Assembly (NCBI RefSeq): GCF_024582815.1
Contig: NZ_CP102099.1
Coordinates: 2,852,001-2,916,000, forward strand
Length of the DNA stretch: 64,000 bases
Direction: 5' to 3'
Source: Acinetobacter colistiniresistens
Lineage (GTDB): Bacteria > Pseudomonadota > Gammaproteobacteria > Pseudomonadales > Moraxellaceae
Within the stretch, counting starts at the first letter, position 1; every line of letters begins with the position of its first letter. Both the position numbers and the translations under genes were made by a program. The notes below the pieces were generated by a model. It did no database searches, was not told the origin of the DNA, and saw nothing but the letters and a program-made list of their open reading frames with translations. This document shows positions 6,717-61,881 of this stretch, piece by piece.

Positions 6717-6850
6717 AACTTTAATGTTTTACTATAAAAGCCTCAGCAAATGAATTGCCGAAATGATCAAGTTTTACGTCGATACAATCATATTTAATCT
6801 CACGAAAACCGTTAAACTTGCTCAAAACTTAGCGGTGTAGGACACAAACT

Positions 6851-8365
6851 ATGCGTGATGTAAACCAAAATGCGATTCAAAAAACAAAAGTTGCCATTAT
6901 TGGTGCAGGTTTTGGTGGCTTGGCAATGGCTATTCGCCTGTTACAAAGTCAAATTAATGATTTTGTGATCTTAGAAAAAACCAATGATGTGGGGGGTACA
7001 TGGCGAGAGAACCAATATCCTGGCGCAGCCTGTGATGTTCAATCGCATATGTACTCACTTTCATTTGCTCCCAAAACAGACTGGTCTAAGCGTTATGCTG
7101 AAGCAGATGAAATCTTTACCTATATCCAAGACATCACGGAACAACACAAATTAAAGGACTATTGCAAATTTGAACATGAAGTCACTCGTGCTGAGTTTGA
7201 TGAAAGCCGAAATATCTGGACCTTAGCCCTGAAAGATCGACCGACAGTTGAAGCACAATTTGTTATTTTTGCCTCAGGTCCACTGCACGTGCCACAAATT
7301 CCTCATGTGAAAGGCATTGAAAACTTTAAAGGTAAAGTTTTCCATTCATCACAGTGGGATCATCATTATGACCTAACTGACAAATCTGTTGCATCAATTG
7401 GAACTGGCGGCAGTGCGATTCAATATATTCCTGAAATTGCGCCAGAGGTCAAACAACTCTATGTATTGCAACGTACCGCAGCATGGGTGATTCCTCGTGA
7501 TGAACGTAAATACTCCCAACTGAGCAAATCTTTATTTAAAGCATCAAATATCTACCGTCAGATTCACCGTACCCGCCTGTATTGGACCAATGAATCTCGT
7601 GTTGTGCCAATTGTACAACCACAGATCATGAAGTATGGCCAGAAACTGGCTGAAGCCTTTATCCGCTTCCAAGTTAAAGACAAAGAACTGGCGAAAAAAC
7701 TAACACCTGATTTTGTCATGGGCTGTAAGCGTATTTTAATTTCAAATAAATATTTCCCAACCTTCAACCGTAAAAACGTTGAATTAGTGACAGATGCTAT
7801 TCAAGAAATCACCGCAAATAGTATCATCACCAAAGATGGCAAAGAACGTCAAATTGACTGTCTGATTTATGGTACAGGTTTTATTACCGACCCTCGTATA
7901 TATCTAAAACATTTCGATTGTGTTGGCCGTAACGGCATTGAACTCAAACAAGCATGGAAAGATGGCGCTGAAAGTTACTATGGGATCAGTACCAAAAACT
8001 TTCCGAATCTATTCCAGTTACTGGGGCCAAATACCATTCTTGGGCATAACTCAGTGATTTTCATGATTGAATCTCAGGTCAACTATATTCTCCAGTTAAT
8101 TCAAACTGTATATAAAACAGGGACTCAAGCAGTTGAAATTAAGCATGACGTCCAAGATCAGTTCAATCAGCGTGTACAAGATCAGCTTAAAGGAACGGTA
8201 TGGCAAGCGGGTGGCTGTAGCAGTTGGTATCAAGCTGCTGACGGTAAAAACTTTTCGTTATGGCCAACCTACACATGGCGATATTGGTTAGAAACTCGTA
8301 AAGTCAATGTCGCTGATTATAATTTTATGAGTACTTCAACTGCTGCCAAATCTAATGCTGCATAA
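6851..8365 (+). CDS. Flavin-containing monooxygenase, Baeyer-Villiger type
   Basis: Two nucleotide-binding glycine motifs are visible: GAGFGG at about residues 18-23 for FAD and GTGGSA at about 184-189 for NADPH. Between them, at about 159-170, lies the Baeyer-Villiger fingerprint FxGxxxHxxxW followed by D instead of the usual P. These enzymes insert one oxygen from O2 next to a carbonyl, turning ketones into esters or lactones. The length (504 aa) fits type I enzymes. It faces an AraC regulator and ends in a strong terminator, so it is a one-gene regulated unit. The substrate cannot be read from sequence. It does not match my recollection of the AlmA long-chain alkane oxygenase N-terminus. 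Confidence 0.88.
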   Translation: MRDVNQNAIQKTKVAIIGAGFGGLAMAIRLLQSQINDFVILEKTNDVGGTWRENQYPGAACDVQSHMYSLSFAPKTDWSKRYAEADEIFTYIQDITEQHKLKDYCKFEHEVTRAEFDESRNIWTLALKDRPTVEAQFVIFASGPLHVPQIPHVKGIENFKGKVFHSSQWDHHYDLTDKSVASIGTGGSAIQYIPEIAPEVKQLYVLQRTAAWVIPRDERKYSQLSKSLFKASNIYRQIHRTRLYWTNESRVVPIVQPQIMKYGQKLAEAFIRFQVKDKELAKKLTPDFVMGCKRILISNKYFPTFNRKNVELVTDAIQEITANSIITKDGKERQIDCLIYGTGFITDPRIYLKHFDCVGRNGIELKQAWKDGAESYYGISTKNFPNLFQLLGPNTILGHNSVIFMIESQVNYILQLIQTVYKTGTQAVEIKHDVQDQFNQRVQDQLKGTVWQAGGCSSWYQAADGKNFSLWPTYTWRYWLETRKVNVADYNFMSTSTAAKSNAA

Positions 8366-53305: not shown

Positions 53306-54901
53306 TTATTGAAAATCGCCCCAACTCAAGCCAAACCGAGCCAAATACTTTTTGACTCGGTCACTATCATTGGTGGTATTACGTTGTTGGCGTGAAGCTG
53401 CAAACAATTGACGTCCAGCATCCGCCATTGACTTGGCATTTTCACAGACTTGCAGCACCCCACGCAGTTGAATCTGATCAAACTCATCGATCTCGCTCAA
53501 CTGCGCTTGATCTAAATACTTGAGTAGAACATCCTTTTCCTTGAATTCACTTTGTGTGGTTTGAATCGACCACAACTGCTTTAAACGCTGAATCTCTTTT
53601 TCGACTGTTTCTGAACGGATCAGCTCACCACTGGATAATGTCGCTAACCGCGTCACACTGGCAGTTAAATCACGAAAATTGCCTTGCCACGATGCTTCTT
53701 TAGACTTGGCAAATTTCAAATACACATCGAGTGCATCACGTTGAAAACGTAGTTGTCGTTGATGATTTGCCGCGAAGCGTTGCAACTCAAATTCAATATT
53801 CGGGGCAATATCTTCAATTCGATCTTTAAGATTAGGTAAAAAGAAAGTCCATGTATTCAATCGCGCCCATAAATCCTCTCGGAAACGACCTGCCTGCACT
53901 TCAGTTCTTAGATCCCGATTGGTTCCTGCAATCAGTTGGAAATCTGCCTGAACCTCTTTGTCACTTCCGACAGGAAAAAAGGATTTATCCTCCAACGCCT
54001 TGAGCAGCATCGCTTGCTCATCCAGTCCAAGTTCACCAATCTCATCCAAAAACAAAATACCCTGATCGGCACTTTTTAATAGACCTGTCCGCGAAGCCGC
54101 TGCACCTGTAAATGCTCCTTTGATATGACCAAACAAACTCGACATGGCACTGTCACCACGTAAGGTCGCACAGTTGACATCAATAAAGCGACCATTCAAA
54201 TGAAACTTATCTTTCTTTAATTGAAAGATTTGTTTGGCTAAATGCGATTTTCCAACCCCTGTTGCCCCCATAATCAGGATCGGGGCACTGGAGCGTGTTG
54301 CCACCAGCTCAACCTCGGTGATCAGTTGATTAAATTCGGGGTTATAGGTTGAGATATTGGCTTTTAGTTGCTGCCAGTTTTGTTGTTGTTCATCTTCAAA
54401 ACGTTGCTTGAGAACATCATAGCGAGACAAGTCCAGATCAATGATACGATATTCACCTTCTGGTGTTTTTTGTTGATTGGGTGCACTTTGAATCAGCTTG
54501 GCAGGCAAATAATTGGCATCGACCAAAAGATACCAACAGATTTGACCAACGTGTGTGCCTGTCGTGATATGCAAAAGATAGTTATTTTTTTCAGTATCAA
54601 ATGGATAGGTTTTTACAAAGTCATACAGCGCACCATAGACCTCGGCAAAATCCCAAGGATCACAGATACTCACTCGCTGCCCGGACACGGTAGTCGATGG
54701 CGACACATCCTGCACATCTTCAGCAATAAATTTAACTAAATTATGATGTTGTCGATCATGCAATAGTACCAATTCATCCACAATCAAATCTTCATGCATC
54801 AGAAGGCTCAAAGTCGGACGCCAGCGTTGCCATCGATCAGGACGCTTTCCTTGATCTAAAGTAGAACCCACAAAGCCAATCACAACGGTTTTTTTATTCA
54901 T
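53306..54901 (-). CDS. rtcR: RtcR, sigma-54-dependent activator of the RNA-repair operon
   Basis: This 531-aa enhancer-binding protein has the RtcR N-terminal regulatory domain (about residues 1-180, CARF-like, sensing damaged RNA ends), a central AAA+ domain and a C-terminal DNA-binding region (QQRNTTNDSDRVKKYLARFGLSW). The AAA+ domain shows Walker A GATGVGKSH, the sigma-54-contacting loop GAFTGA and Walker B ILFLDEIGELG. It starts with a 4-bp overlap on a small Cys-rich gene. Its likely target, a -24/-12 promoter before rtcB, is about 2 kb away. Confidence 0.95.
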   Translation of the reverse strand: MNKKTVVIGFVGSTLDQGKRPDRWQRWRPTLSLLMHEDLIVDELVLLHDRQHHNLVKFIAEDVQDVSPSTTVSGQRVSICDPWDFAEVYGALYDFVKTYPFDTEKNNYLLHITTGTHVGQICWYLLVDANYLPAKLIQSAPNQQKTPEGEYRIIDLDLSRYDVLKQRFEDEQQQNWQQLKANISTYNPEFNQLITEVELVATRSSAPILIMGATGVGKSHLAKQIFQLKKDKFHLNGRFIDVNCATLRGDSAMSSLFGHIKGAFTGAAASRTGLLKSADQGILFLDEIGELGLDEQAMLLKALEDKSFFPVGSDKEVQADFQLIAGTNRDLRTEVQAGRFREDLWARLNTWTFFLPNLKDRIEDIAPNIEFELQRFAANHQRQLRFQRDALDVYLKFAKSKEASWQGNFRDLTASVTRLATLSSGELIRSETVEKEIQRLKQLWSIQTTQSEFKEKDVLLKYLDQAQLSEIDEFDQIQLRGVLQVCENAKSMADAGRQLFAASRQQRNTTNDSDRVKKYLARFGLSWGDFQ

Positions 54902-57027: not shown

Positions 57028-57044
57028 TTGGCACACTCGCTGCT
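57028..57044 (+). promoter_or_regulatory. Sigma-54 (-24/-12) promoter of the RNA-repair operon
   Basis: TTGGCACACTCGCTGCT has the invariant GG (57030-57031) and GC (57042-57043) separated by exactly 10 bp, close to the consensus TGGCAC-N5-TTGC. It is the only strong match I saw, and it precedes rtcB, the classical RtcR target. Confidence 0.85.
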
Positions 57045-57086
57045 ATAGTATAAGCACACAACATCATTGGGATCTTGTGAATATCA

Positions 57087-57113
57087 CCTGCCTGCAAACG
57101 CTTGGCAGGCAGG
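57087..57113 (+). promoter_or_regulatory. 5'-leader hairpin of rtcB
   Basis: The 9-bp perfect stem CCTGCCTGC/GCAGGCAGG with a 9-nt loop would be transcribed about 30 nt downstream of the predicted start. It ends 8 nt before the ribosome binding site AGGA. It could affect mRNA stability or translation. Confidence 0.65.
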
Positions 57114-57132
57114 CTTTGAAAGGAAAATGAAA

Positions 57133-58404
57133 ATGTCTGTCGTTGAACAACTTAACCAACAAGCTCAATTTGAACAAGAACAGCAACAACGTGCTTATCA
57201 GGTTCTACAAAATGGAAAAAGTATGCCAGTAAAAATGTGGACCAATGGCGTACTGGTCGATGACAACTCAAAACAACAATTGCTGCAAACCGCACAAATG
57301 CCGTTTATTTATAAATGGATGGCCGTAATGCCAGACGTTCACTTTGGCCTAGGTGCAACCATCGGAAGTGTGATTCCAACCAAAGGGGCGATTATCCCTG
57401 CTGCGGTCGGTGTCGATATCGGGTGTGGAATGATGGCGACGCGTACCAGCTTAACCGCTTCTGATTTACCCGATAACTTATATGCTTTACGTACTGAACT
57501 GGAACGTCTGATTCCACATGGAATGACCAAAGGCCGTGGTCGAGATAAAGGTTCTTGGGAAACGCCACCTGAAATGGTAGACCAAGCTTGGGCTGATTTA
57601 GTTGCAGATTTTGACTTCATCTGTGCAAAGCATCCTCGCCTAAAAAATACCAATAACCGCAAGCAACTGGGAACTTTAGGAACAGGAAATCACTTTGTAG
57701 AAATCTGTTTGGATGAACACGACCATGTTTGGATTATGTTGCACTCAGGTTCTCGCGGTGTGGGTAATGCCATCGGTAATCATTTTATCGAGCTGGCACG
57801 TAAAGATATGCAGAAGCACTTTATTAACTTACCCAACAAAGATTTGGCTTATTTAGTCGAAGGAACTGAACATTTTGATGATTACTGGTTTGCAGTAGGT
57901 TGGGCACAACGCTTTGCCATGAAAAACCGTGAAATCATGATGCAGTCTGCGATTAAGGCCTTAGCAACGATTATTCCGAAACCGTTCCAAGCACGATTGG
58001 AAGCCGTGAATTGCCACCATAATTATGTGGAAAAGGAAGAACATTATGGCGAAGAAGTTATGGTAACCCGTAAAGGTGCTGTACGTGCACGTTTGGGAGA
58101 ATATGGAATTATCCCGGGTTCAATGGGCGCCAAGTCCTTTATTGTTCGCGGTCTTGGAAATCAGGAATCATTTTGCTCATGTTCACATGGTGCAGGCCGC
58201 GTAATGAGCCGTGCTGAAGCAAAACGACGTTTTACTGTGGAAGATCAGATTGCGCAGACTGAAGGCGTGGAATGCCGTAAAGATGCTGCGGTAATTGATG
58301 AGATTCCATCGGCCTATAAACCAATTGAAGATGTTATGAAAGCACAGCAGGATTTGGTTGAAGTGGTGTATACATTAAGACAAGTAGTATGTGTTAAGGG
58401 CTAA
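57133..58404 (+). CDS. rtcB: RNA-splicing ligase RtcB
   Basis: RtcB is a GTP- and Mn2+-dependent ligase that joins RNA 2',3'-cyclic phosphate or 3'-phosphate ends to 5'-OH ends. The metal-binding Cys in GVDIGCGMM, His clusters (GTGNHFVE, MLHSGSRGVG) and the guanylylated His in CSHGAGR are all present. At 424 aa it is normal for RtcB. Two in-frame ATGs lie close together; I prefer the second (MSVVEQ) because AGGA is about 8 nt upstream of it. It is the first gene after the sigma-54 promoter. Confidence 0.96.
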   Translation: MSVVEQLNQQAQFEQEQQQRAYQVLQNGKSMPVKMWTNGVLVDDNSKQQLLQTAQMPFIYKWMAVMPDVHFGLGATIGSVIPTKGAIIPAAVGVDIGCGMMATRTSLTASDLPDNLYALRTELERLIPHGMTKGRGRDKGSWETPPEMVDQAWADLVADFDFICAKHPRLKNTNNRKQLGTLGTGNHFVEICLDEHDHVWIMLHSGSRGVGNAIGNHFIELARKDMQKHFINLPNKDLAYLVEGTEHFDDYWFAVGWAQRFAMKNREIMMQSAIKALATIIPKPFQARLEAVNCHHNYVEKEEHYGEEVMVTRKGAVRARLGEYGIIPGSMGAKSFIVRGLGNQESFCSCSHGAGRVMSRAEAKRRFTVEDQIAQTEGVECRKDAAVIDEIPSAYKPIEDVMKAQQDLVEVVYTLRQVVCVKG

Positions 58405-58406
58405 TT

Positions 58407-58788
58407 ATGGAAAAGGATTGTTTAGATATTCGAAGCTATAGAATCAGAGCAAATGAAGCAGTTCATCTCGCTCTACCTGAGCAATCCTATTACATCATCT
58501 TGGCTGTAAATACTGATGAAATTTTACCTGAATGGCGTAATTGGATTTGTGAGCAGATTGTCTATTCAAGACTATGCATTCAAGCAATGGTGGCAGGACA
58601 TGAGTGCTCTATTTGGGATGATGCCTAGATGAAACGTATCTAGGTTTTTATAACGATCAACCACCAGTCGATCATTGCTTCATGACAACTTGGCATAAAA
58701 ATGAAACTTTAGAAGATATTACTGAATTTGCAAAATTTAGTATGGAATTGGAAAATGTTTCAAACTTAGTCATTGTACATATTGAATA
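58407..58788 (+). pseudogene. Small gene between rtcB and the DIP1984 gene, frameshifted
   Basis: The first frame codes for 73 residues (MEKDCLDIRSYRIRANEA.. to ..CSIWDDA, then stop). The second continues from about 58625 (DETYLGFYNDQPPVDHCF..) to a stop at 58788. Adding one C to the CC at 58624-58625 fuses them into a protein of about 127 aa, with nothing missing at the joint. I do not recognise the function. The gene starts 2 bp after rtcB and ends just before the DIP1984 gene, so it belongs to the RNA-repair operon. Confidence 0.7.
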
Positions 58789-58801: not shown

Positions 58802-59260
58802 ATGAAACTCGCAGAAGCACTTTTACTGCGAAGCGATCAACAAAAAAAGCTCGCTTCATTAAAACAACGGATCAACGCCAATGTATTGGTACAAGATGGT
58901 GATGAACCGAGTGAAGATCCAAATGAACTGATCAAACAGGTGTTTGCTTTGAGCCAAGAAAGCAATCAATTGATTTGTCGCATTCATTTGACCAACGCAC
59001 AAGCAAAATTAGAGGATGGCAAAATCCTGCTGTCCCTATTAAGCTTACGAGATAGTTATGCTGAGCAACACAAGATTCTCGTTGATGCGATTGCCAATAC
59101 CCATCGTGAACCTGATCGTTATAGTTCACGCGAGATCAAATGGCAGAAGGTTATCCCTGTCTCTAGCTTGCAAAAACAAGCCGATGATATCAGCGCGAAA
59201 TTACGTGATTTAAATATCAAAATTCAGGCTGCAAATTGGCAAATTGATTTAGTTGAATAG
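58802..59260 (+). CDS. DIP1984-family protein
   Basis: This 152-aa soluble, mostly helical protein has likely coiled-coil segments at about residues 5-25 and 120-150. Family landmarks are MKLAEALLLRSDQQKKLASLKQRI, the central LEDGKILLSLLSLRDSY and SSREIKWQKVIPVSSLQKQADDI. DIP1984-family proteins have no established biochemical role that I know of. It lies 13 bp after the frameshifted gene, inside the sigma-54-driven rtcB operon, followed by the structured RNA candidate and rtcA. That suggests a role in RNA repair. Confidence 0.85.
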   Translation: MKLAEALLLRSDQQKKLASLKQRINANVLVQDGDEPSEDPNELIKQVFALSQESNQLICRIHLTNAQAKLEDGKILLSLLSLRDSYAEQHKILVDAIANTHREPDRYSSREIKWQKVIPVSSLQKQADDISAKLRDLNIKIQAANWQIDLVE

Positions 59261-59300
59261 ACAACAGATTTTGTGAATTTAGTTCACAATCACAGTTTGG

Positions 59301-59488
59301 ACATACTGGGCGAGTACAAGATCCTGCGTTACTCCGATCTGAGGGATTGAAAATAATTCAGGCGGCTATGGCAGCATGCGAGCCGTGCATCAATCTTCAC
59401 TGATTAGGCTCAGCACCATGGACCTCGTAAACCTTTGCCAAAAGCAAAGTCACGCGTTACTTCGCATTACCATGTACTGACAGTATGT
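59301..59488 (+). ncRNA. Candidate structured RNA in the RNA-repair operon
   Basis: The 258-bp gap between the DIP1984 gene and rtcA carries a closed fold. The ends pair through ACATACTG (59301-59308) with CAGTATGT (59481-59488), then AGTACA (59313-59318) with TGTACT (59473-59478), then TGCG (59325-59328) with CGCA (59463-59466). Inside are CTGAG (59339-59343) with CTCAG (59409-59413), GATTGA (59345-59350) with TCAATC (59390-59395), CGGCT (59363-59367) with AGCCG (59381-59385), and the hairpin CTTTGC-CAAAA-GCAAAG (59433-59449). Its G+C is higher than neighbouring non-coding DNA and it has no open frame. The operon position resembles that of Y-like RNAs in other rtcBA operons, but no Ro gene is present here. 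Confidence 0.6.
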
Positions 59489-59518
59489 TCATTTAATTAG
59501 AAAATAAGGAAAATAGAC

Positions 59519-60111
59519 GTGAATAAGGCCTTGGCAAATATGCCAGCAACCATCCAGATTGATGGTTCACAAGGTGAAGGTGGTGGACAAATTTTAAGAA
59601 CTGCCCTTGCCCTTTCGATGATTACAGGTCAGGCATTTGAATTAATTAACATTCGGGCTAGACGGAAAAAACCAGGTTTAATGCGTCAGCATTTGGTCTG
59701 TGTACAGGCATCCCAACAGATTAGCCAAGCGTATGTTGAAGGTGCTGAACTCCATAGCCAGCGCTTGTACTTTGCACCTCAACATGTACAAAGTGGCAAA
59801 TACCAATTCCATATTGGTTCAGCAGGCAGCACAACTCTGGTTTTACAGACCCTATTGCCTGCTTTGTTATTGCAAAATCAAGCTAGTGAACTCATCATCT
59901 CAGGCGGTACTCATAATCCGCTTGCACCGACAGCAGATTTTATCGAGTATTGCTTTTTACCTACACTCACCAAGATGGGAATAGAAACCGAGTTTAAGTT
60001 AAATAAAGCAGGTTTCTTCCCGATTGGTGCAGGTGAAATTCAAATCAAGATTCAACCGTGGCAACATCGAAACAAGTTTAGCTTGTTAGAACGTGGCGCT
60101 TTACAAAATAC
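59519..60111 (+). pseudogene. rtcA: RNA 3'-terminal phosphate cyclase RtcA, 5' fragment (split by an IS)
   Basis: RtcA uses ATP to turn RNA 3'-phosphates into 2',3'-cyclic phosphates. This fragment of 197 codons has the signature IDGSQGEGGGQILRTALALS, then RARRKKPGLMRQHL and the ISGGTHNPLAPTADF region. The start is a GTG preceded by AAGGA. The frame runs into the IS at 60112. Joining it to 61423 restores one continuous frame of about 349 codons, close to the usual length, so the gene was intact before insertion. Confidence 0.93.
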
Positions 60112-60161
60112 TGAACCGTACCGGGTTTGTCGGAGACTCAATATTCTGAGAGACTATTCCG

Positions 60162-60479
60162 ATGAAAAAACCAAACTATACCCCCGAAATTAGAGAAAGA
60201 GCGGTTCAATTACTAATTGAATCTGAAAAAGATTATCCATCGAATTGGGCAGCAGTTTCCGCAATTGCTCCTAAAATTGGCTGTACTCCTGAAACACTTC
60301 GTGTTTGGTATCAAAAATACTTAGATCAACAAAATCCCGCCAAAGTACAACAGGTATCTGACCAAGAAAAAATGAAGCAAATGGAACGTGAAATTAAAGA
60401 ATTAAAACGTGCCAATGAAATTCTACGTAAAGCAGCCGCTTTTTTCGCCCAGGCGGAGCTCGACCGCCCACACAAATAA
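60162..60479 (+). CDS. IS3-family transposase OrfA
   Basis: This 105-aa protein has an N-terminal helix-turn-helix (YTPEIRERAVQLLIES.. and ..IGCTPETLRVWYQKY) and a C-terminal leucine-zipper-like coiled coil (EKMKQMEREIKELKRANEILRKAAAFFAQAELDR). Its stop overlaps the orfB ATG (TAATG) in -1 phase, as in IS3 elements that make an OrfAB fusion by frameshifting. It is full length. Confidence 0.92.
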   Translation: MKKPNYTPEIRERAVQLLIESEKDYPSNWAAVSAIAPKIGCTPETLRVWYQKYLDQQNPAKVQQVSDQEKMKQMEREIKELKRANEILRKAAAFFAQAELDRPHK

Positions 60480-61382
60480 TGGTGGATTTTATCCATAACA
60501 ATAAGGCGTTATATGGTGTTGAAGCGATTTGTAGAATTTTACCGATTGCAGCTTCGACCTATTATCGGGCTTTAGATTTCGTTGATAACCCAGAACATCG
60601 AGCGAAACGTGCTCTGCATGATTTACATCATGCAGAGCAAATCAAACGTATTTGGAAAGAAAGTTCAGGTCGATATGGTGTACGTAAAGTTTGGCAAAAA
60701 TTGAAACGTGAGGGTTATGTTATTGCATCGTTGTACAGTTGCTCGATTGATGCAAAAGCTAGGTATACAAGGTGTTTGGCGTGGTAAGAATAAACAAACC
60801 ACCCGTAGCCGAGATGATCAAAAACGAGCAGATGATTTAGTGAAACGGAATTTTAGTGCTGATCGACCTGACCAATTATGGGTCAGTGACTTTACGTATA
60901 TTCAAACACATTCAGGCTGGGTCTATACCGCCTTTATTATTGATGTGTTCTCACGAGCAATTGTTGGATGGAAAGTATCTACACGGATGAATACAGATAT
61001 GGTGCTCGATGCATTGGAGCAAGCATTGCACGATCGAGGCATGCCAAAGAATGTGATTCATCATTCCGATAGAGGTGTTCAATATCTTTCTATTCGCTAT
61101 ACCAATCGTTTAGATGCTGCAAATTTACGAGCATCAGTCGGTACGACAGGTGATTCATACGATAATGCTCTGGCTGAAACGGTGAATGGCTTATACAAAA
61201 CAGAGGTGATTGAATATTTAAAAGCAGATTGGCAAGGTTTAGCAGATGTACAACTTGCGACACTAAACTGGGTAGATTGGTTCAATAAAAAGCGTGTACA
61301 CAGTGCACTGGGTTATGTATCGCCTTTTGAGTTTGAAGCAATGTACTATGATAAGATTAACCCGTTAGGTCAGGTGGCCTAA
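60479..61382 (+). pseudogene. IS3-family transposase OrfB, frameshifted
   Basis: The first part (to about 60727) encodes FIHNNKALYGVEAICRILPIAASTYY.. and ..SSGRYGVRKVWQKLKREGYVIA. The rest, in another frame, encodes RCTVARLMQKLGIQGVWRGK and the DDE integrase core: D in WVSDFTY, D in HHSDRGVQY, E in ALAETVNGLYK. A single extra T at 60728 separates the frames; without it the protein is continuous. The element may therefore be unable to move by itself. Confidence 0.88.
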
Positions 61383-61422
61383 CTTAAATAAAAAAGTCTC
61401 CGACAAACCCGGTACGGTTCAT

Positions 61423-61881
61423 ACTGCAGCTTTTGCAGCTGTATTGAATGTTTCAAAAGAAGCGCAAATCGCAGAGCGGGAATTAACAACTTTAAGTAAA
61501 AGACTGAAATTAGATGCACAACAACAGTTCCATTTAAATGGGATTAGCCAAGGCAATACGGCGTATGTCAGAGTTGAGCATCAACACCACACTCAACTAT
61601 TTACTGCTTTAGGTGAAATGCGAAAAAGTGCAGAACAAATTGCCAATCATTTGGCTGAACAGGTGCAGCAATATATTGCTTCTCAGGCGGCTGTGGATGA
61701 ATATTTAGCAGATCAGTTGTTATTGCCTATAGCATTGGGTCAAGGCGGTGAATTTACCGCACAATGTATTAGTGAACATACCCGTACTCAAGCCACTATG
61801 ATTGAAAAATTTATTAATTGTGAAATTGAATTTATCGAGCTGGATAAAACACTGTTTCAGGTCAAAGTAAACGTAGAATAG
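61423..61881 (+). pseudogene. rtcA: RNA 3'-terminal phosphate cyclase RtcA, 3' fragment
   Basis: These 152 codons follow the IS in the frame of the 5' fragment: TAAFAAVLNVSKEAQIAEREL, then ..RVEHQHHTQLFTALGE.. and ..LADQLLLPIALGQGGEFTAQ, near the C-terminal catalytic His region (SEHTRTQATMIEKF). The last part is what RtcA needs for adenylylation, so the split removes activity unless the fragments reassociate. It ends 12 bp before kptA. Confidence 0.9.

Follow-up and report, generated by a model that had tools for sequence, protein, structure and literature searches.

An RNA-repair locus with a non-coding gap

We analyzed a 64-kb window of Acinetobacter colistiniresistens DNA; the window is the whole stretch, and feature coordinates refer to it. 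It carries an RNA-repair locus. On the forward strand lie rtcB (57067..58404; PF01139 over residues 71–445, with a true start that is probably later than the TTG), a gene for a DIP1984 family protein (58802..59260; PF20935 DUF6847) and rtcA. A small ORF between rtcB and DIP1984 (58407–58628) gives a borderline match to DUF7684 and recurs in many relatives with varying identity. The DIP1984 protein scored 164.5 bits against NF038048, for which the curated cut-off is 70. The rtcA gene is cut by an IS3-type element (about 60110–61440) into a first part (59519..60142, forward strand), to which relatives mostly align as far as residue 208, and a last part past the insertion (61444..61881, forward strand). 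The frameshift signal of this element matches the ALIL pseudoknot RF01497 (60437–60553); rtcA is unbroken in most of the relatives examined. The presumed regulator of the locus, rtcR (53306..54901, reverse strand; NF038308), and KptA are also found in the window. A possible sigma-54 promoter lies 5′ of rtcB (57029..57044, forward strand), with two mismatches to the consensus. This is a weak candidate that only its position favors: the window holds 10 sigma-54-like sites versus 11.1 expected by chance.

The DIP1984 gene and rtcA are separated by a gap (59261–59518). A sequence-only reading of the window had called this gap non-coding and had proposed that it encodes a closed, multi-stem RNA. 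A check for reading frames agreed on the first point, finding no ORF of at least 50 aa in the gap. Single-sequence folding of the gap gave z = −2.8 (0/200 shuffles) and −3.0 (1/200). Because the opposite strand folds nearly as well (z = −2.6, 3/200 shuffles), folding energy alone is weak evidence. The case that the RNA is real rests on covariation and on recognition by an independently built model.

The gap RNA is predicted to hold two tandem pseudoknots

We used two covariance models: R1, a cross-phylum model from 38 copies with no Moraxellaceae among them, and R2, a model of gammaproteobacterial RNAs. R1 matched the gap at 59304–59485 (E = 3e-4), its sole match in the 64-kb window at E ≤ 1, and R2 aligned to the window RNA from end to end (167 bits). 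The structured RNA, of ~194 nt on the forward strand (59298..59491), is the short Moraxellaceae form, which represents the family core. Among R1-matched copies, 78/82 carry a 5′ GGUA and 76/82 a 3′ GGGYGGG..GGGG, and by eye an outer stem often encloses the whole RNA in distant copies. The window RNA is without these outer 5′ and 3′ elements, and its R1 match spans only positions 22–181 of the 214 in the model; thus, it is a shortened form.

The ends of the RNA pair with each other. P1 joins 59298..59308 to 59481..59491 by 11 bp (all parts given here are on the forward strand), and 9 of its 10 aligned pairs vary on both sides in 32 gammaproteobacterial sequences. P2 (59313..59318 with 59473..59478, 6 bp) has a conserved ACC directly before its 3′ strand and shows both-sided changes at 5/6 pairs in the 32 sequences and at 5/5 across phyla. 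Between the two stems lies an internal loop, GGCG (59309–59312) opposite GA (59479–59480). The earlier reading had closed the RNA with three helices of 8, 6 and 4 bp: pairing of the ends is borne out, as 11 bp plus 6 bp, and the 4-bp helix (taken as 59325–59328/59463–59466) is not, being fully intact in 2/32 related sequences. Across phyla (38 sequences), all 14 P1/P2 pairs vary on both sides, 96.9% of the alignment cells are paired and 161 cells are changed (versus 39.6 in shuffles and 16–35 in slid structures). Of 500 shuffles, 6 reached the count of 14 both-sided pairs, and none reached any of the four further measures.

The conserved inner pairs form two pseudoknots. In pseudoknot 1, a short stem (GATCC, 59320..59324, with GGATT, 59344–59348) interlocks with a second helix (CCG..CTGAG, 59334..59343, with TTCAG..CGG, 59357–59365). 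The short stem, which reads CCC/GGG or ACCCG/CGGGT in relatives, has 92.5% of its cells paired in the 32 sequences and all pairs intact in 26 of them. The second helix has 82% of its cells paired, and 9/9 pairs vary on both sides, when scored in the register of another relative. Pseudoknot 2 is built on the hairpin ATGC-GAGCCGT-GCAT (59376..59390), whose loop GAGCC pairs with GGCTC (59407–59411), a pairing kept in 28/32 rows. The loop reads GAGC in the window and GGGC, GGGT or GGAT in relatives, with the partners GCTC, GCCC, ACCC or ATCC; the partner strand sits just 5′ of an AGCAC-like motif (GGCTC and the conserved AGCAC together span 59407..59416 in the window).

Scored in the columns of the window, CTGAG/TTCAG of pseudoknot 1 and the ATGC/GCAT stem of pseudoknot 2 are fully intact in just 3/32 and 2/32 rows, respectively. 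We attribute these low scores to a sliding of strands within the alignment, given the much better pairing of pseudoknot 1 in the other register and alignment-free descriptor tests of both elements. The pseudoknot 1 descriptor scored 27.1 versus 21.3 in shuffles (61 of 82 copies); 24 of these 61 copies were reached by at most 2/40 shuffles and the remainder are individually unremarkable. The pseudoknot 2 hairpin scored 10.1 versus 4.4 with its flanks shuffled (32 rows), and in the window sequence the descriptor script favors an overlapping stem, GCATG/CGTGC, over ATGC/GCAT. Across phyla, the pseudoknot 2 descriptor was found in 68/82 copies and 125/410 shuffles, a result that is supportive only since the script sometimes picks pseudoknot 1.

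The 40-pair structure with both pseudoknots varies on both sides at 32/40 pairs in the 32 gammaproteobacterial sequences, with 91.8% of cells paired and 156 changed cells (versus 37.7 in shuffles and 32–42 in slid structures). Covariation, the check named by the sequence-only reading, is thus found in P1/P2 and the pseudoknots. The stems with which that reading had filled the interior are poorly conserved: CTGAG/CTCAG is fully intact in 4/32 related sequences, GATTGA/TCAATC in 1/32 and CGGCT/AGCCG in 9/32, and their place is taken by GATCC/GGATT with CTGAG/TTCAG and by GAGC/GCTC. Its perfect 6-bp hairpin is real (59433..59449; CTTTGC/GCAAAG, 59433–59438/59444–59449) and optional, as it is gapped in 14/32.

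A small hairpin between the DIP1984 stop codon and the RNA (59271..59289, forward strand) was reached by 2/50 shuffles and may be a processing element; in 23 of 44 Moraxellaceae copies the upstream hairpin was reached by at most 2/50 shuffles. A hairpin resembling the T arm of tRNA (loop letters TTCRANN, closed by G-C) was found in 37/82 copies versus 3/1640 shuffles. It was not found in the other 45 copies and none was seen in the window RNA, so mimicry of tRNA can at most be part of what the RNA does. Taken together, these sequence comparisons establish a conserved RNA family. Its predicted fold places a conserved internal loop between P1 and P2 and includes a tandem pair of H-type pseudoknots and, often, a T-arm-like hairpin.

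The RNA lies behind DIP1984 genes in seven phyla

Using a DIP1984 alignment, we scanned a set in which each species has a single genome, and examined the best 80 of the 364 relatives obtained. The examined relatives belong to seven phyla: Pseudomonadota, Actinomycetota, Bacillota, Chloroflexota, Acidobacteriota, Planctomycetota and Poribacteria, the last two each represented by one metagenome-assembled genome. In these loci the RNA downstream of the DIP1984 gene is mostly 170–235 nt. R1 matched 82 of 83 DIP1984 sources (the 80 loci and three plasmid records), always on the DIP1984 strand; outside its training set it matched 44 of 45, the weakest being L175 (E 0.008). The sole miss among the 83 is L169, where by eye only the 5′ half of the RNA remains. 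Three Ruminococcus copies (L171, L175 and L177) have diverged so far that R1 barely matches them (17–33 bits); their interior is AT-rich and they end in a GGGCGGG tail. At 78 of the 79 genome loci measured, the R1 match starts −6 to 92 nt from the DIP1984 stop codon, mostly 0–20 nt. The exception is L139 of Oerskovia enterophila (7936–8133), in which the RNA is 3464 nt from DIP1984 with several ORFs between them.

In a set of 42 Moraxellaceae and related sources, a selection limiting redundancy, R1 matched 37 at E ≤ 1 (the weakest at E 0.01–0.2) and gave no match at this threshold in five (L033, L043, L055, L066 and L084). In the reverse search, R2 matched the Bacillota copies L166 (E 1e-9) and L141 (E 8e-5) and gave no match to the RNA in L107, L108 and L123. 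DIP1984 was over the cut-off in 3 of 299 genomes of the phylum (G000, G156 and G326); R1 found matches beside it in G156 and G326 and, under the stricter filters of this search, missed G000, the window's own genome. An R1 match away from any DIP1984 gene (L181/G377, 29.5 bits) was rejected as spurious: by eye it is antisense in a putative chromate transporter ORF, and its P2 is mismatched. Of four viral contigs that carry a DIP1984-like gene, two (L186 and L188) matched the RNA, and the R2 score of L186 equals that of the Acinetobacter plasmid form. A strict terminator script scored right after the RNA in only 2/28 Bacillota copies versus 4/560 random pieces, and we set terminators aside as evidence.

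Two tandem, diverged copies of the RNA stand behind a single DIP1984 gene at eight Acinetobacter loci (L036, L037, L040, L041, L045, L046, L047 and L049) and at L071. Such duplicates suggest that the RNA is a product rather than a signal. At the eight tandem Acinetobacter loci, a separate hairpin stands ahead of most of the copies, and its loop is in many cases UUCG.

The presence of the RNA is tied to DIP1984

Among 119 Moraxellaceae genomes, DIP1984 was over the cut-off in 29 (G083 and G171 with split frames among them), and R2 found the RNA in exactly those 29. Under strict filters, R2 found it in none of the remaining 90, a DIP1984-fragment genome (G247) included; R2 was trained on many of the 29 positives, and the informative part of the result is the 90 genomes without the RNA. 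A DNA search of the genus, covering 149 genomes with the source genome among them, matched in 58. Divergent copies escape this search: G020 and G050 went unmatched, yet R2 finds the RNA in both. We examined 58 genus loci, equal to 57 distinct places (L030 is L058), from 56 of the 58 matching genomes, and found RNA-like sequence directly behind DIP1984 at 56 of them (55 distinct places).

At two loci, L032 and L050, DIP1984 is gone and the RNA is cut down to roughly its final 45 nt, a remnant that in L032 lies between rtcB and rtcA. In G083 (L018/L087) and G171 (L086), the DIP1984 frame is split and the RNA is intact, which may reflect decay of the protein or sequencing errors. No other protein cluster recurs beside the pair. 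With ORFs overlapping the DIP1984–RNA unit set aside (these are the source of larger clusters), the largest cluster outside the unit occupies 7/80 loci by loose chaining and 3/80 by a stricter rule. Comparison of the genomes thus ties the presence of the RNA to DIP1984, and the pair travels together on chromosomes and plasmids.

The same strand, the usual start 0–20 nt past the stop codon and the tie to DIP1984 would also fit a cis element, a 3′-UTR of the DIP1984 mRNA serving stability or autoregulation, with no separate RNA. Against this stand the size and shape of the element (two tandem pseudoknots in ~200 nt), its tandem diverged duplicates, the L139 RNA 3.5 kb away beyond other ORFs, the tRNA-like arm and, unless sequencing errors are to blame, the intact RNA beside split DIP1984 genes in G083 and G171. 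We consider a cis element rather unlikely and favor a separate RNA that partners DIP1984.

The tie to RNA repair is partial

A structured RNA gene does lie in the rtcB–rtcA locus with rtcR nearby, as had been read from the sequence. We wondered how general this arrangement is. Either rtcB or rtcA lies beside DIP1984 at 44/56 genus loci (flanks mostly 1.5–2 kb on each side) and at 17/30 family loci, two samples that overlap in seven places. Neither gene was found in the examined flanks of the other 12/56 and 13/30 loci. Outside Moraxellaceae, rtcB was found in the examined flanks of 1 of 83 loci (L154, 35% identity). The tie of the RNA to the repair locus is therefore partial.

The frequency of rtcB and rtcA in the genus and the family could tie the RNA specifically to RtcB/RtcA, as a partner or substrate (close to what the sequence-only reading had suggested) or as a sensor. 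Their absence from the examined flanks of so many loci within these samples, the near absence of rtcB from those elsewhere and the fact that the RNA follows DIP1984 (29/29 versus 0/90 genomes) speak against such a tie, and we find it improbable. The same reading had made the RNA independent of Ro, and here it holds for more than the window: no TROVE-domain (PF05731) gene was found in the whole source genome, with Deinobacterium chartae positive as a control. The favored partner is still DIP1984.

DIP1984 is a predicted four-helix protein

The DIP1984 model has four helices (pLDDT 93.7). Its sole clear structural match is a relative, 3kdq, a structure from 2009 that carries the label "functionally unknown"; no known RNA-binding fold is among the structural matches listed. 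The other look-alikes were set aside as ordinary helical-bundle matches, and so was 9r1o, a designed protein matched by sequence (E 4e-5). Residues invariant in 43 DIP1984 sequences include K2, E5, R10, R23, Q31, N65, E111, D128, R135, Q142 and W146. A Pfam scan returned DUF6847 only. DIP1984 had no match in the PADLOC defence library, an incomplete list of type III toxins, and the window protein had none in PHROGs. A viral DIP1984 relative gave a weak PHROGs tail-fibre match (E 6e-4), which we disregarded.

The pair is widespread on Acinetobacter plasmids

A plasmid search with one Acinetobacter RNA copy returned 348 records (347 from Acinetobacter and one from Aeromonas), of which 342 cover at least 80% of the query. 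The DIP1984 protein was found in 373 plasmid records, 344 of them from Acinetobacter. In six accessions common to both listings, the RNA begins 28 nt past the end of the DIP1984 match. Of 40 listed among the 348 records, 39 have "none" as annotation of the RNA stretch and one record is without annotation. On pAB0057 (L190:6332–7110), the unannotated RNA (6815–7012) is flanked by DIP1984 on one side and by a pdif-like recombination site (7083) on the other; a BrnT/BrnA toxin–antitoxin pair is on the same plasmid. Plasmid copies of the RNA also occur in Enterococcus, Streptomyces and Paracoccus. The gene of Acinetobacter plasmids for which the name "septicolysin" is in use in the literature corresponds to the plasmid form, a DIP1984 gene with its RNA.

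Type III toxin–antitoxin systems pair a pseudoknotted RNA with a cognate small protein and are found on plasmids. A unit of a pseudoknotted RNA and a small protein on 348 plasmid records, on pAB0057 next to a pdif-like site and together with BrnT/BrnA, might thus be a type III-like toxin–antitoxin or plasmid-maintenance pair. In this unit, however, the gene order differs, with the RNA downstream; the RNA is not a short repeat, DIP1984 is without a defence-library match and the pair is chromosomal in many phyla. We hold a toxin–antitoxin role to have a low probability.

Comparison with known RNAs

The Rfam search named in the sequence-only reading returned no credible Rfam 15 match in the gap: at gathering threshold there was nothing at the RNA in the window, and no match was found at the RNA in 23 distinct relatives, for 8 of which the search was confined to the gathering threshold. 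An E-value setting gave, in the window, just one match, to avian hepatitis B epsilon (21.3 bits versus a cut-off of 45). We rejected it as chance, together with mir-486 matches that L097 shows outside the RNA; a T-box match in L096 is below the cut-off, upstream and on the other strand. In 31 loci, ARAGORN called neither a tRNA nor a tmRNA at the position of the RNA, and it did find real tRNAs elsewhere in L107, L126 and L148.

Y RNAs, as described in passages of PMC8394870 and PMC7790460, have a closed stem, a tRNA-like module and a dedicated protein, and sometimes lie in rtcBA operons. The DIP1984-linked RNA resembles YrlA with Rsr/Ro60 in the stem that closes its ends, the adjacent gene for a dedicated protein, the placement in rtcBA operons and the T-arm-like hairpin of 37/82 relatives, the only arm of the Y RNA tRNA-like module that we observed. 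It differs in having two pseudoknots and no Y RNA match in Rfam, in a source genome without a Ro/TROVE gene, in the size of most copies (~170–235 nt versus 90–150 for Y RNA) and in a protein that matches DUF6847 only. A bacterial Y RNA would also be expected to have D, T and acceptor arms in its tRNA-like module and to bind Ro and PNPase. We propose that the two would be analogous, not homologous.

Like tmRNA with SmpB, the RNA combines a T-arm-like element with pseudoknots (tmRNA also contains them) and has a small protein nearby; unlike tmRNA, it escapes ARAGORN and Rfam and no acceptor stem was seen. It is large, highly structured and long unexplained, as are raiA, OLE, ROOL and GOLLD. The neighbor genes of these four differ from those of the DIP1984-linked RNA, which is without an Rfam match. 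GOLLD, ROOL and OLE are named among large bacterial RNAs in a passage of PMC12286853.

In the literature searched, DIP1984 appears only as the name of a plasmid ORF, and DUF6847 and PF20935 are absent. Nothing comparable appears among the RNA discoveries listed there, and no such motif in passages of three RNA-discovery papers (PMC11109978, PMC8632094 and PMC6429828); parts of the main text of two A. baumannii RNA-interactome papers (PMC11472050 and PMC12802169) make no mention of expression of the RNA. With no Rfam match and a DIP1984 protein without described function, the RNA family is possibly a new one; a prior description may exist beyond the literature searched.

Discussion

The RNA of the rtcB–rtcA gap is part of a family that follows DIP1984. 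Chance folding of an intergenic spacer, which a single-sequence z near −3 and a similar score on the other strand might suggest, is refuted by covariation, by the recognition of the window by R1 and by the matches at 82/83 loci.

Several observations point to a partnership with DIP1984: the matches at 82/83 loci, the proximity to the stop codon, the presence of both in the same 29/119 genomes, the loss or shortening of the RNA where DIP1984 is gone or fragmentary (L032, L050 and G247) and the lack of any other recurrent protein cluster. The RNA and DIP1984 probably work together as an undescribed RNA–protein machine. We lean, by a modest degree, toward a dedicated partnership of the RNA with DIP1984, with which it would form a Ro–Y-like particle drawn into the repair loci of Moraxellaceae. 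The DIP1984 gene and the RNA would be transcribed together and the RNA would be cut out of the transcript, possibly at the small preceding hairpin. The four-helix DIP1984 may bind the RNA, holding its closing stem in a Ro–Y-like manner. The rest of the RNA, with the tRNA-like arm where present, could receive or tether RNA-handling enzymes or mimic tRNA. In Moraxellaceae, where the pair would often have been drawn into the rtcR–rtcB–rtcA locus, it may work next to RtcB/RtcA on damaged tRNA-like RNA, by acting on it, sensing it or shielding it. More tentatively, and with somewhat less than even confidence, the pair could be an undescribed pan-bacterial ribonucleoprotein, a doubly pseudoknotted RNA that partly mimics tRNA and is bound by the helical DIP1984, that senses, shields or routes damaged tRNA, has been built into the rtcR/rtcB loci of Moraxellaceae and is spread by plasmids.

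A structured RNA family present in seven phyla without an Rfam 15 match is rare, and this RNA offers a first way into the function of DIP1984/DUF6847. In Acinetobacter plasmids, the "septicolysin" region contains an RNA besides its protein gene. Passages of PMC7790460 describe the roles of the Y RNAs that accompany RNA-repair operons as still open; to such operons, the DIP1984 pair would add a protein–RNA pair that is free of Ro.
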